42,837 nt of DNA from assembly GCA_029218465.1 (NCBI GenBank), contig JAQXRJ010000057.1, positions 1 through 42,837 of the forward strand, in the 5' to 3' direction. Made by a program: the position numbers and the translations under genes. Positions 3,916 through 29,341 of this stretch are shown piece by piece (the first letter of the stretch is position 1; each line of letters begins with the position of its first letter). The notes beneath the pieces are model-generated. The model was not told where the DNA came from. It saw only the letters and a list, made by a program, of their open reading frames with translations, and searched no databases. The stretch is from a bacterium. Its GTDB lineage: Bacteria > Bacillota_I > Bacilli_A > RF39 > UBA660.

Positions 3916-4593
3916 TTAAAAAAATAATTTAAATTATGCATATTAATATATAAGATATGCAAAAGGTCATATTCTTAATTATTATAAATAAATTCATATT
4001 CAAAAAAGATTCAATTATTTAATTTTTGAATCTTTTGTTTTTTATATAGCCAATCAATAGATATCTTGTAATATTTTTCAAATTATATTAGTGGATAATA
4101 AAGTTTATCTCATTTCATTTTTTTAATATTTGGGGTTGAATAACAAACTATTCCAGTATATACAATTGTTAATAATAAAACACTCAGTAACTTTGAATTA
4201 AATTAATTTTTTGAGTATAACAATAATAATGTAATAAAATATTGCAATGTTTTTAAGGATGAAGAATATGGAATTAAAAAAAGCTCAAAAATATTAATGA
4301 TATTTTTTGCATTTTGTTACAGTTGGAAGAAATATATTATAGAGATAAAAAACTTGTAATAAAATTTCTAAATAATCATTTTTATTTGTAAATTTTACAC
4401 TATAAATAATAAGCTATATTTTACTTTTTTTAAATTATATGATATTCTATAGAAGAATAGTAGTGTTTAGAAAATAGCGTTGTTATAATTTATGAATTCA
4501 GTTTTTTCTAAGATATTTATCTATTCACAGAATCTTTATTAAATTTTAGAATTATGAATATGCAATATGAAGCATATTGAAAGGGAGGTATTT
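3916..4593. other. Long non-coding gap before the SPFH gene
   Basis: This AT-rich stretch of 678 bases has no credible gene. It holds the terminator of the surface-protein gene (about 4004-4043) and, at 4269, a 9-codon open frame with a purine-rich leader (MELKKAQKY then stop) that could be the head of a decayed gene. I see no repeat array, structured RNA or mobile-element end. The last bases carry the strong GGGAGG ribosome binding site of the next gene. Confidence 0.5.
4004..4043 (+). terminator. Intrinsic terminator after the InlB-repeat gene
   Basis: An 11-base perfect stem (AAAAGATTCAA at 4004-4014 with TTGAATCTTTT at 4026-4036) is followed by a T-rich tail. It lies about 90 bases past the surface-protein stop. 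Confidence 0.7.
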
Positions 4594-5817
4594 ATGGGAT
4601 TTATTAAAGCATTTACTGGCGCATTCAATGCCACATTAGCTGACCAATGGAAAGATTTCTATGGTCCAAAACAAGGTGTTTCTGCTACTGCAGCAATTTT
4701 TCAAGCAGTACCACAAAGTACTAATGCAGGTGTTGGAGAAAACACTAAAGGTTCAAACAATATAATTAGTAATGGCAGTAAAATTATTGTTCCAGAAGGG
4801 ACTGCACTTGTTACTATGCAGGATGGACAAATTACTGGATTTATCGCTGAGGCGGGTGGATTTATTTATCAATCAGATGATCCTAACTCACAATCACTTT
4901 TTGCAGGCGATGGTATTTTATCATCAACTATTAAACAAACTTGGGAAAGAGTTAAATTTGGAGGACAGCCTGGTAGTCAACAATTAGCTTTTTATGTAAA
5001 TATGAAAGAAATTCCAAATAACAAATTTGGAACTCAATCTCCAATTGTATTCTATGATAATTTCTTACAAACTCAAGCAACAGTTTCTGCTAGAGGAACA
5101 TATACATTACAAATTGTTGATCCATTATTATTTATCAAAAATTTTGTCCCAATGCAATATTTACAACCTGAAGCTCAAGACTTTGATTTTTCTGATATGG
5201 ATAATGCTGCTGGACAACAATTATTTACAGAAGTTGTTTCTGGTTTAGGACAAACATTATCTGTATATTCAAACAGTGATCCTCAAGGTGGAACTTTAAT
5301 GAAAATTCAAAGTGATCCAATCGGATTAGCTAAGAGTATGCAACAAGTCGTTGAAGAAAATTATCAATGGACAAGTTCTCGCGGTTTAAAAATCGTGAGA
5401 GTGGCTATGGTACCACCGGAATATGATGAAGAAACTACTAAACTATATAGAGAAATTCAAGAAGATGACAGAGAAGTTAGAAAATCTGCTAGAATGGGTG
5501 CTGCTTATGCTAATAATATGGCAGGAATGATGGCTTATGATAGTGGACAAGCTTTAAAAAATGCTGCTAGCAATGAAAATGGCGCAATGATGGGATTTAT
5601 GGGTATGAATATAGCAAGCATGCAAGCAAATAATATTATGGGTGCTGCTAATGCTGCGGTGCAACAACCAACTACTCCAACTGAACCAGTAGCTACTCCT
5701 CAGTCAGTTGCAGAAGATCCTTATGCAAAATTAACTGAAATGAAAAAATTGTTAGATGCTGGAGTAATTACACAAGAAGATTTTGATGCTGCAAAAGCCA
5801 AGTTATTAGGTATTTAA
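4594..5817 (+). CDS. SPFH-domain protein with C-terminal SHOCT domain (YdjI-like)
   Basis: A 407-residue protein of the SPFH (stomatin/flotillin-like) family, related to Bacillus YdjI and the so-called virion-core-like proteins. GGGAGG at 4583-4588 fixes the start at 4594 over an in-frame ATG at 4567. The N-terminus (FTGAFNATLADQWKDF) and the region with GSKIIVPEGT, ITGFIAEAGGF and SARGTYTLQI are typical. The C-terminal 32 residues (DPYAKLTEMKKLLDAG... DFDAAKAKLL) form a SHOCT domain, usually an interaction tail, after an Ala/Met/Asn-rich low-complexity stretch. In Bacillus, YdjI helps place the PspA stress protein at the membrane with YdjG and YdjH (family knowledge). Here it heads a zinc-ribbon membrane module with the next gene three bases away; no PspA gene is in view. 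Confidence 0.88.
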   Translation: MGFIKAFTGAFNATLADQWKDFYGPKQGVSATAAIFQAVPQSTNAGVGENTKGSNNIISNGSKIIVPEGTALVTMQDGQITGFIAEAGGFIYQSDDPNSQSLFAGDGILSSTIKQTWERVKFGGQPGSQQLAFYVNMKEIPNNKFGTQSPIVFYDNFLQTQATVSARGTYTLQIVDPLLFIKNFVPMQYLQPEAQDFDFSDMDNAAGQQLFTEVVSGLGQTLSVYSNSDPQGGTLMKIQSDPIGLAKSMQQVVEENYQWTSSRGLKIVRVAMVPPEYDEETTKLYREIQEDDREVRKSARMGAAYANNMAGMMAYDSGQALKNAASNENGAMMGFMGMNIASMQANNIMGAANAAVQQPTTPTEPVATPQSVAEDPYAKLTEMKKLLDAGVITQEDFDAAKAKLLGI

Positions 5818-26915: not shown

Positions 26916-27217
26916 ATAATATATATTATAAATTAAATGACATTATAAATTCTATAAATAATATAGATGAAATTAAAAGGATGAAATCTTTAAAGAAAGA
27001 AATATATGCTGATAAGAATCTTAAAGAAGATTTAAATGCTTTTCATAATATAATGGAGAATCCTTATTCAAATGAATATGTTGAATTAAAGAGAAAAATA
27101 TTAGAAAATGATAAAGTAAAAGAATATAAAAAGTTAGAAAATAAATTATTTATAACTGTTTTAGAAATAAACAAAAGGTTAAATACTCTGATAGATAAAA
27201 GGAAGTGTTTATTATGA
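26912..27217 (+). CDS. ylbF: YlbF family regulator (RNase Y-associated complex component)
   Basis: A 101-residue all-helical protein of the YlbF/YmcA family; the helix IDEIKRMKSLKKEIYADKNL and the later NPYSNEYVELKRKIL fit the family. In Bacillus, YlbF with YmcA and YaaT forms the complex that steers RNase Y to its targets. The family call is supported strongly by position: it is followed directly by rsmD, the ylbF-to-ylbH order known from Bacillus (ylbG is missing here). It overlaps the U32 gene and rsmD by four bases each. The divergence from model sequences makes the symbol less certain than the family. Confidence 0.75.
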   Translation: MNNIYYKLNDIINSINNIDEIKRMKSLKKEIYADKNLKEDLNAFHNIMENPYSNEYVELKRKILENDKVKEYKKLENKLFITVLEINKRLNTLIDKRKCLL

Positions 27218-27756
27218 AAGTAATAAGCGGTACTTTAAAGGGAAGAGTTGTTGAAGGATTTAGTCTTAAGGAAACTAGACCAACTATGGATAGAGTAAAA
27301 GAGTCTCTTTTTGCTTCTATTCAAAATTATGTTCCTAATAGTACTGTTCTTGATTTATTCGCAGGAAGTGGTAATCTAGGAATAGAATCTATAAGTAATG
27401 GAACAAGTAAAGTTTTCTTTAATGATAAAAGCAAAGATGCATGTAAAGTTATTGATAATAATATATCTAAATTTGGTATTAAAGATAAATCAATAATTAT
27501 GAATTATGATTATATGAAATGTTTAAAAGTTTTGAAAGAAGAAAATCAAACTTTTGACATAATATTTTTGGATCCCCCATATAAAATGGAAATTCTAAAT
27601 GAAGTGATTGAATTTATTATTAATAATAATCTTATTAATAACGGTGGAATAATTGTTTGTGAAATAAGTAATTATTATTTAAAAAACTATGAAATGTTAA
27701 AAATTATTAAAAAGAAAAAATATGGTGATAAAGAAATTGTTATTTTAAAAAAATAA
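27214..27756 (+). CDS. rsmD: 16S rRNA (guanine966-N2)-methyltransferase RsmD
   Basis: RsmD, 180 residues from the ATG at 27214 (AAAGGAAG placed correctly; an upstream in-frame TTG is not needed). It methylates G966 of 16S rRNA during 30S assembly. The N-terminal KVISGTLKGRVV and RPTMDRVKESLF are family hallmarks; the SAM site is LDLFAGSGNLGIES (about residues 45-58), and the catalytic motif IV is DPPY. The ATGA overlap with ylbF shows translational coupling. In Bacillus, coaD follows, but here a small pilin-like gene does. Confidence 0.95.
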   Translation: MKVISGTLKGRVVEGFSLKETRPTMDRVKESLFASIQNYVPNSTVLDLFAGSGNLGIESISNGTSKVFFNDKSKDACKVIDNNISKFGIKDKSIIMNYDYMKCLKVLKEENQTFDIIFLDPPYKMEILNEVIEFIINNNLINNGGIIVCEISNYYLKNYEMLKIIKKKKYGDKEIVILKK

Positions 27757-27801
27757 TTGTAAATACTCAATTTTTATTTTATAATTACAATAGGTGATTA
27801 T

Positions 27802-28059
27802 ATGAAACTTAATAATAAAGGTTTTGCGATATCTACAGTTCTTTATGGACTTTTAGTTTTATTAATTTTAATAGTAATGCTAATATTTCAAGTTATGAGA
27901 ACTAATAACAATAATAGTAAAGATTTAAGTAATCAAATACAAAAAGAACTTGATACTTGTAGGGAATCTAGGATTAATTATAATAATTGTGTCGAGGATT
28001 GTGAAGAGGAAAAAAATGCTTATTATACATGTTTAAATAGCCTAAAAGAAAATAAATAA
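27802..28059 (+). CDS. Small prepilin-like anchored protein with twin CX9C motif
   Basis: An 85-residue protein with ribosome binding site AGGTGAT. The N-terminus KLNNKGFAISTVLYGLL followed by a run of aliphatic residues (to about residue 30) looks like a type IV prepilin leader (Gly7-Phe8 cleavage site), although position +5 after the cut is Thr, not the usual Glu. The short outer part has four cysteines, C53, C63, C67 and C77, spaced CX9C-X3-CX9C in charged helix-forming sequence. That is the geometry of a disulfide-stapled helical hairpin. It is a stand-alone gene between rsmD and rnhC and ends in a terminator. I do not recognise a family; an anchored lipid-facing or pilus-like role is only inference. 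Confidence 0.75.
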   Translation: MKLNNKGFAISTVLYGLLVLLILIVMLIFQVMRTNNNNSKDLSNQIQKELDTCRESRINYNNCVEDCEEEKNAYYTCLNSLKENK

Positions 28060-28086
28060 AAAGATTGTATTTACAATCTTTTTAAA
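28060..28086. terminator. Bidirectional intrinsic terminator between pilin-like gene and rnhC
   Basis: The stem AAAGATTGT (28060-28068) with ACAATCTTT (28073-28081) has a four-base loop, with A's on the left and T's on the right. It can serve both the plus-strand small gene and the minus-strand rnhC, whose stop lies at 28082-28084. Confidence 0.8.
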
Positions 28087-29029
28087 ATATTAAAGTATCT
28101 AAAATTCTTTGTGTATTTCTGAAATTTAATTTTGCTATTTCTTTTAACTTTCCTTTTCCATATTTTTCAACAACTTCTTTGCCAATGGTATCAACTTGAG
28201 GTCCAGCTCCTTTTGGTAGAGGAATGTGAAGTTCATCACATATTTTATCGAATTCTTTTAAGAAAATATATCTACTTATTACTGATGCACAAGCAACTGC
28301 AAGATTTTTGTCTTCTGCTTTAGTCATAAATGTTATTCCTCTTTGAATTTTATTTGATTCATTTATATATGAATAGTATCGTGCTTCTCTTGCAAATTCA
28401 TCTACAATTATATAATCGTATTCTAAATTTTCCTCATTAACCATTTTCCAAAGTGCTTTATTATGCATTATAGCTTTAATTTTATTTATATTATTTTCAG
28501 CATTATTATACTTTTCGTTATACTCAGTATTTGATAATATTATGCTTTTGTACTTAATTTCTTTTACAAGTTGTGGAGTAATTTTAAGTATTTTTTGATC
28601 ATCTAGTTTTTTTGAATCTTTAATACCTAACGATTCAACAAATGGTATATTTTCTCTGCTAACATAACAACTAGTAACAACAATTGGCCCAAAATAATCA
28701 CCTGTACCAACTTCATCTGAACCAATTGAAGAGCAATAATAATATTTTGAATAATCTTTTTGTGCTTCTTTTTTACTTGTTTCTATGGATGTTTGTTCCA
28801 TTGCCCAAATTGAAGATTCAACATCAGATGATATTCCTTGAAACATCACTTTATTTTCTCCTTTTTTATTTTTATCATATATTGTTATTACAACATCTTC
28901 GTTTTGTGCTTGCATTGTAATATAAGGAAGTTTTTTGCCTCTATCAAATGGTTTATAAAAGTTAATCATTTTTTGTTTTGTTTCGTCATCTACTTTAAGG
29001 ACAATATAATTATTATTGTTATTTGCCAA
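28082..29029 (-). CDS. rnhC: Ribonuclease HIII
   Basis: RNase HIII, 315 residues, removes RNA from RNA-DNA hybrids. The catalytic signature SSIGSDEVGTGDYFGPIVVTS (in part GSDEVGTGDYFGP) places the acidic pair at about residues 105-106; YDYIIVDEF and AVACASVISRY are later family motifs with catalytic Asp/Glu. The N-terminal TBP-like domain (about 1-95) is that of HIII and not HII. On the minus strand GAGGTG (29042-29037) lies six bases before TTG at 29029, so a TTG start is more likely than the GTG at 29038, which overlaps the ribosome binding site. It is the only minus-strand gene in the second half of the window. Confidence 0.95.
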   Translation of the reverse strand: MANNNNNYIVLKVDDETKQKMINFYKPFDRGKKLPYITMQAQNEDVVITIYDKNKKGENKVMFQGISSDVESSIWAMEQTSIETSKKEAQKDYSKYYYCSSIGSDEVGTGDYFGPIVVTSCYVSRENIPFVESLGIKDSKKLDDQKILKITPQLVKEIKYKSIILSNTEYNEKYNNAENNINKIKAIMHNKALWKMVNEENLEYDYIIVDEFAREARYYSYINESNKIQRGITFMTKAEDKNLAVACASVISRYIFLKEFDKICDELHIPLPKGAGPQVDTIGKEVVEKYGKGKLKEIAKLNFRNTQRILDTLIF

Positions 29030-29050
29030 TGTAATCACCTCTATGAGTAA

Positions 29051-29127: not shown

Positions 29128-29204
29128 GGACCCTTAGCTCAGTTGGTTAGAGCATCCGGCTCATAACCGGGCGGTCATAGGTTCGAGTCCTATAGGGTCC
29201 ACCA
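29128..29204 (+). tRNA. tRNA with CAT anticodon, probably tRNA-Ile2 rather than elongator Met
   Basis: A complete 77-base cloverleaf: acceptor stem GGACCCT/AGGGTCC, D-arm TAGCTCAGTTGGTTAGAGC, anticodon stem TCCGG/CCGGG around loop CTCATAA (anticodon CAT at 29162-29164), T-arm with GGTTCGAGTCC, and an encoded CCA end. A GGACC...GGTCC acceptor resembles the lysidine-modified tRNA-Ile(CAU) of Firmicutes and mollicutes rather than elongator tRNA-Met, which typically has a GGCGG-type acceptor. Automatic tools would probably write Met. Isotype needs comparison with the other CAT tRNAs of the genome. Confidence 0.95.
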
Positions 29205-29212
29205 TTATAAGA

Positions 29213-29297
29213 GCGGGTATGGCGGAATTGGCAGACGCACTAGACTTAGGATCTAGCGCCGCAAGGCTTGCAGGTTCAACTCCTGTTACCCGCACCA
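29213..29297 (+). tRNA. tRNA-Leu (anticodon TAG)
   Basis: A class II tRNA of 85 bases with acceptor stem GCGGGTA/TACCCGC, anticodon stem CTAGA/TCTAG around loop CTTAGGA (anticodon TAG at 29247-29249), a long variable arm (CGCCGCAAGGCTTG), T-arm GGTTCAACTCC, and an encoded CCA end. It lies eight bases after the previous tRNA and shares its transcript. Confidence 0.97.
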
Positions 29298-29341
29298 TAA
29301 GAGTTTTACTTGAACTGTCAAAAGGTCAAGTTTTATAAAGG

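Follow-up and report, generated by a model that had tools for sequence, protein, structure and literature searches.

The stretch of DNA analyzed here (the window, 42,837 nts at its full length) belongs to a MAG that is 89% complete with 6% contamination and is the sole member of its genus in the sets searched. On its forward strand, an 85 aa ORF with an ATG start (27802-28059) is located between rsmD (27214..27756, forward strand) and, in convergent orientation, the ribonuclease HIII gene rnhC of the window gene list (28082..29038, reverse strand). The gap between rsmD and the ORF is 45 bp long. It contains a Shine-Dalgarno-like AGGTGA read on the forward strand 4 nts 5' of the ATG (27792..27797) and a sigma-70-like promoter match, TTGTAA-17-TATAAT (10/12; 27757..27785, forward strand), which is weak because the promoter scan yields no more such sites than shuffles. 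A perfect 13-bp inverted repeat with A and T runs on its flanks overlaps the end of the gene (28057..28084; fold z = -5.3) and is likely a bidirectional terminator between the convergent genes; a GC-based terminator scan gives no score to this repeat. The ORF is a real gene, as its conservation, the Shine-Dalgarno site and the terminator rule out a spurious reading frame.

In many genomes of the family, rsmD directly precedes the gene, and the usual order is U32 peptidase, a small ylbF-like gene, rsmD and the pilin-like gene. The preliminary description had proposed to look in relatives for the same gene between rsmD and rnhC; the position directly after rsmD held, and rnhC was found 1-3 kb further downstream in several of them. 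An SPFH / virion-core-like gene is present between the pilin gene and rnhC in relatives (L164:3657-4868, L171:4055-5254, L141:4001-4786), and a similar-looking gene lies far off in the window (4567-5817); both were named by look alone. Elsewhere in the window, an ORF on the reverse strand (29161-29298, MVRVTGVEPASLAALDPKSS...) is antisense to tRNA-Met and tRNA-Leu genes, a type of translation often misannotated as protein.

Leader, helix and predicted four-cysteine hairpin

The protein begins with the leader peptide MKLNNKG (27802..27822, forward strand), for which the conserved motif and the presence of PilD in the genome predict cleavage after Gly7. This short basic leader ending in Gly is followed by Phe and about 20 hydrophobic residues (MKLNNKG^FAISTVLYGLLVLLILIVMLIF), as in prepilins. 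Residues 8-31 (27823..27894, forward strand) form the hydrophobic helix corresponding to a pilin alpha-1N / membrane segment, predicted with a pLDDT of about 95 for residues 11-30, and a helix extension (residues 32-61; 27895..27984, forward strand) holds Cys53. The AlphaFold helix covering residues 5-61 gives the protein a predicted long N-terminal helix, as in type 4 pilins. The residue at +5 is Thr (MKLNNKG^FAIST) instead of the Glu of conventional pilins, as already noticed in the preliminary description, and +5 is non-Glu in 25/25 aligned rows, across which G7, F8, A9, T12 and Y15 are invariant. The leader is the most conserved part of the family-wide gene. Nothing above cut-off was obtained with Pfam N_methyl (PF07963) or the NCBIfam pilin models, either for the window protein or for its long relatives; searches with NCBIfam, and with Pfam in the case of the window protein, yielded weak unrelated matches only. 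A conventional E5 pilin from the same rsmD slot of another genome does match a pilin model.

Following the hydrophobic segment, the cysteines at 53, 63, 67 and 77 form the CX9C-X3-CX9C motif of a predicted hairpin, recognized from sequence, alignment and AlphaFold (27958..28032, forward strand). Their spacing is exactly 9-3-9, as first described, and among the 57 window ORFs of at least 60 aa, this gene is the sole one with a 9-n-9 or 9-n-7/9 arrangement. Shuffling the protein's own tail reproduced 9-3-9 in 0.011% of cases and any 9-n-7/9 in 0.29%. Conservation is stronger evidence than these shuffle statistics: all four cysteines are kept in 20/20 distinct sequences, window copy included, which rules out chance cysteines. 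The first pair is CX9C in all 20; as the second, 12 have CX7C and 8 have CX9C. The linker between the pairs varies from 3 to 13 residues (6-13 in the relatives), so that the conserved pattern is CX9C-X(3-13)-CX(7 or 9)C. The four cysteines, whose conservation the preliminary description had proposed to test, proved conserved within this set; the exact 9-3-9 spacing did not, being unique to the window copy, and other clades carry two cysteines or none. Among the 19 longer four-Cys members, C53, C63, C71, Y76 and C79 are the invariant residues between positions 31 and 81, the non-Cys tail columns averaging 52%; close pairs of relatives have a dN/dS of 0.05-0.14. In an rsmD tree taken to represent the species tree, from which one row truncated by its contig end was excluded, one change of 4-Cys state, in a region of moderate support, parts the four-Cys rows, window included, from the rest.

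AlphaFold run with 25 rows predicts a helix (5-61), a turn and a second helix (68-83), with a mean pLDDT of 82. In this model C63 and C67 fall within the turn, whose ends are 8 and 9 residues away from C53 and C77, respectively. The helical hairpin proposed in the preliminary description is also the predicted one and, judging from the helix boundaries, C53 can pair with C77 and C63 with C67, giving two putative disulfides. A longer homologue is predicted alike (helices 5-65 and 74-80), followed by a mixed alpha/beta domain.

Relatives, C-terminal modules and pilus machinery

At E <= 1e-7, 88 of 386 genomes of the same family match the protein; a four-Cys profile matches 195/386 at E <= 1e-5, mostly via the leader helix alone. 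In a sample of 395 genomes from the class, no hit at E <= 1e-9 falls outside this family. The records that carry a name are uncultured gut Bacilli; many of them come from ruminants, deer and other animals, and Candidatus Onthousia is one of the more distant. Four forms of the gene were distinguished. The four-Cys hairpin after the helix occurs in the 20 distinct sequences described above, each of which lies directly after rsmD and comes from the same family of uncultured gut Bacilli. Two short forms comprise proteins of 57-64 aa with two cysteines, most with C-X5-C at the very C-terminus, and proteins of 53-63 aa with no cysteine; a long form (300-680 aa) has no hairpin. The one long member scanned, from a sister clade, carries glycine-rich (ALK_LTK_GRD), discoidin-like and ricin-type lectin domains.

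In short forms of 57-59 aa, the last residues are exactly C-X5-C, for example ELNACVAAKTC (L007, L050, L051, L052, L091, L092, L094-L096, L098, L103; several shown directly after rsmD). This terminal motif, which coincides in position with C53 of the window protein, could close a single disulfide loop. In another clade, conventional E5 pilins (KGFTLIELLAVIV) are present in the rsmD slot (L067, L068, L070, L072, L073, L078), and the slot therefore seems to be a long-standing pilin site.

About 220-290 residues follow the hairpin in 18 of the 19 four-Cys relatives, and only about 105 in the remaining one (G008, L003). This C-terminal module is thus present, at least in part, in all 19, and lectin domains are found in the lectin clade. 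The predicted domain of one relative (L140) resembles the N-terminal domain of the Thomasclavelia ramosa IgA peptidase (9qa6; Foldseek E = 1e-4), which was also the sole, weak, PDB sequence hit of the family profile for the module (E = 0.07). This peptidase domain has a C-type-lectin-like core (PMC12237041). The long relatives match this fold in their C-terminal module and differ from the IgA peptidase in having no peptidase part. DUF6273 was rejected for the module, as it matched 1/19 members at E = 0.0044, too weak a match, and the IgA peptidase domain is the stronger candidate by fold. The window copy has no adhesive module of the kind grafted on PilB/PilC-type tip pilins: it stops eight residues past C77, directly before the terminator, and therefore no module remnant is left. 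What the preliminary description missed is that the protein is the short form of a modular, lectin-bearing pilin and that its likeness to mitochondrial proteins, treated below, arose by convergence.

A prepilin peptidase, anticipated in the preliminary description, is encoded in the genome: PilD (PF01478) is adjacent to PilC (PF00482) on contig C12, a PilB-type ATPase (PF00437) is on C72, a Tad-type set on C86 and E5 pilins on C31. A peptidase, a platform protein and an assembly ATPase are thus all available, and the pilin-like gene is encoded alone, apart from PilB, PilC and PilD. Among 12 carriers, PilB-type ATPases and T2SSF-type platform proteins are present in 12 and PilD in 11, the peptidase not being found in G080. 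The thiol oxidase that oxidative folding had led the preliminary description to expect did not turn up: DsbB and VKOR families had no match in any of the 12 carriers, and Thioredoxin_4 gave sub-threshold hits in four, none of them the window genome, with nothing above cut-off. In the window genome, pilC-pilD is immediately preceded by two transposase-like genes that look IS3-like (L245:1955-3306, G000:C12), and the pilC frame after them is intact at about 480 aa. Two other genomes show an unusual expansion of pilin-type leaders, with 46 matches to the pilin N_methyl motif in G175 and 24 in G277, many of identical score and spread over most contigs.

A putative tip pilin and the alternatives

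We consider it fairly probable that the protein is an E5-less, modular minor (pseudo)pilin of a type 4 filament, probably located at the tip, of which the window copy has the stapled hairpin and no module. The steps from cleavage to filament membership, tip location and adhesion are those that we infer: PilD would remove MKLNNKG, and the hydrophobic helix would be held in the membrane before entering a pilus built by PilB and PilC. Instead of a beta-sheet pilin head, the outer end would consist of a short second helix, folding back onto the end of the long one and stapled by C53-C77 and C63-C67. In relatives, the stapled hairpin may act as a stiff joint from the pilin helix to the C-type-lectin-like module, whose place is taken in another clade by discoidin and ricin-type lectin domains. 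In the window copy, the hairpin would make up the whole head; the protein could then cap or initiate the pilus without any module, or serve another subunit as a platform.

The apex appears the most likely position because the protein lacks Glu5, an absence that marks the filament-apex subunits PilA of Streptococcus sanguinis and K of the HIJK complexes; modular pilins with adhesive domains are likewise assigned to the tip, since the shaft has no room for bulky modules (PMC9934059, PMC10628169). With its E5-less helix and exchangeable lectin-like modules, the family fits an apex adhesin. The PilA, PilB and PilC tip complex of S. sanguinis (PMC9934059, PMC10628169) also belongs to a monoderm type 4 pilus; its PilA, without Glu5, is placed at the apex, and its PilB and PilC consist of short pilin parts with grafted adhesive modules, that of PilC being a lectin. 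Unlike these proteins, the relatives described here combine the E5-less helix and the lectin-like module on one chain, joined by the four-Cys hairpin, and the gene follows rsmD instead of being in a pil operon; the two systems are compared by these features. The K subunit of HIJK minor pilin complexes (GspK type) similarly lacks Glu5 and caps the filament, but K is bulky with a large globular head whereas the window protein has only a hairpin.

The absence of Glu5 would equally suit a pilin-derived membrane protein that never enters a filament, its helix staying in the membrane to display the cysteine hairpin, or the lectins of relatives, on the surface. The isolated position of the gene away from pilus genes and the existence of relatives of only 53-60 aa, almost headless, point the same way. 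However, an ordinary membrane anchor would not need so conserved a leader motif, and the carriers have the machinery, with PilD in nearly all and the ATPase and platform in every one; we consider such a protein unlikely. The short length of the window copy, alone among the 20 four-Cys sequences in having no long C-terminal part, raises another explanation, in which its lineage lost the ancestral lectin-like module and the leftover is functionless. That the window copy could be a decaying gene was counted against the tip pilin reading, as were the lack of any pilin-model match, the isolation of the gene from PilB, PilC and PilD, the negative DsbB, VKOR and Thioredoxin_4 results, the carrier G080 without a PilD hit and the want of a significant Foldseek hit for the 85-aa model. 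Yet the frame is intact, the Shine-Dalgarno site, the four cysteines and the leader are kept, the terminator comes right after the stop, and stable short forms exist in several genera of other clades, so that decay is rather improbable.

The cysteines themselves might bind a metal ion (zinc, iron or copper) and not form two disulfides. The hosts are gut anaerobes, neither DsbB nor VKOR was found in the carriers, and a metal site would tolerate the CX7C/CX9C change too. However, in the predicted antiparallel hairpin, the 9-residue spacing would put the outer and inner pairs far apart along its axis, an arrangement better suited to two disulfides than to one four-Cys site, and no conserved His or Asp accompanies the four cysteines; these may also oxidize spontaneously or through an oxidase outside the DsbB and VKOR families. 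Metal binding appears unlikely.

Likeness to mitochondrial CHCH proteins

Four-cysteine hairpins of twin CX9C layout are textbook substrates of the mitochondrial disulfide relay. The preliminary description had likened the protein to this class, and the window copy does share the layout, with two CX9C in a predicted hairpin. Like COX17, NDUFB7, Cmc1 and mS37, it would have two short antiparallel helices with four cysteines in two CX9C pairs, and the expected pairing is outer to outer and inner to inner. In contrast to the mitochondrial proteins, the family is bacterial, anchored by a pilin helix and without the Mia40/Erv1 route, and its spacing varies among homologues, with CX7C as the second pair in 12/20 and a linker of 3-13 residues.

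A true prokaryotic homologue of the CHCH / twin CX9C family would explain why the best PDB hits of the family profile are NDUFB7, mS37 and bc1 complex subunit 6. It would also explain why two members match Pfam NDUF_B7. Yet every hit is weak (PDB E >= 0.1) and no curated threshold was passed: among CHCH-type Pfam models, NDUF_B7 (best E = 0.0013) and Cmc1 (E = 0.0042) matched 1-2 of 19 long members below cut-off, and none matched the window protein. Foldseek of the 85-aa model gave 24 hits, none significant, one pair is CX7C in most members, and the motif arises once, in one bacterial family, on a pilin whose relatives lack it. Homology was rejected as very improbable, the hits to NDUFB7, Cmc1 and mS37 being sub-threshold and the origin phylogenetically late. 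Because of this late single origin on a pilin and the sub-threshold sequence matches, the comparison argues for a likeness of layout that arose by convergence.

Among the papers searched, none combines twin CX9C, bacterial and pilin. We tentatively suggest, as possible rather than probable, that bacteria independently evolved a CHCH-like double-disulfide hairpin that serves an apex pilin as head or joint and is oxidized outside the known DsbB/VKOR routes; its state could then depend on oxygen at the gut surface or report on it. Conserved exported cysteines in genomes without DsbB or VKOR raise the question of their oxidation route. The lectin-like domains may explain how uncultured gut Bacilli hold on to host or other cells. 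One conserved locus exposes an E5-less, module-swapping pilin family that the pilin models tried do not recognize, and its conserved four-Cys hairpin shows that the design can arise by convergence.
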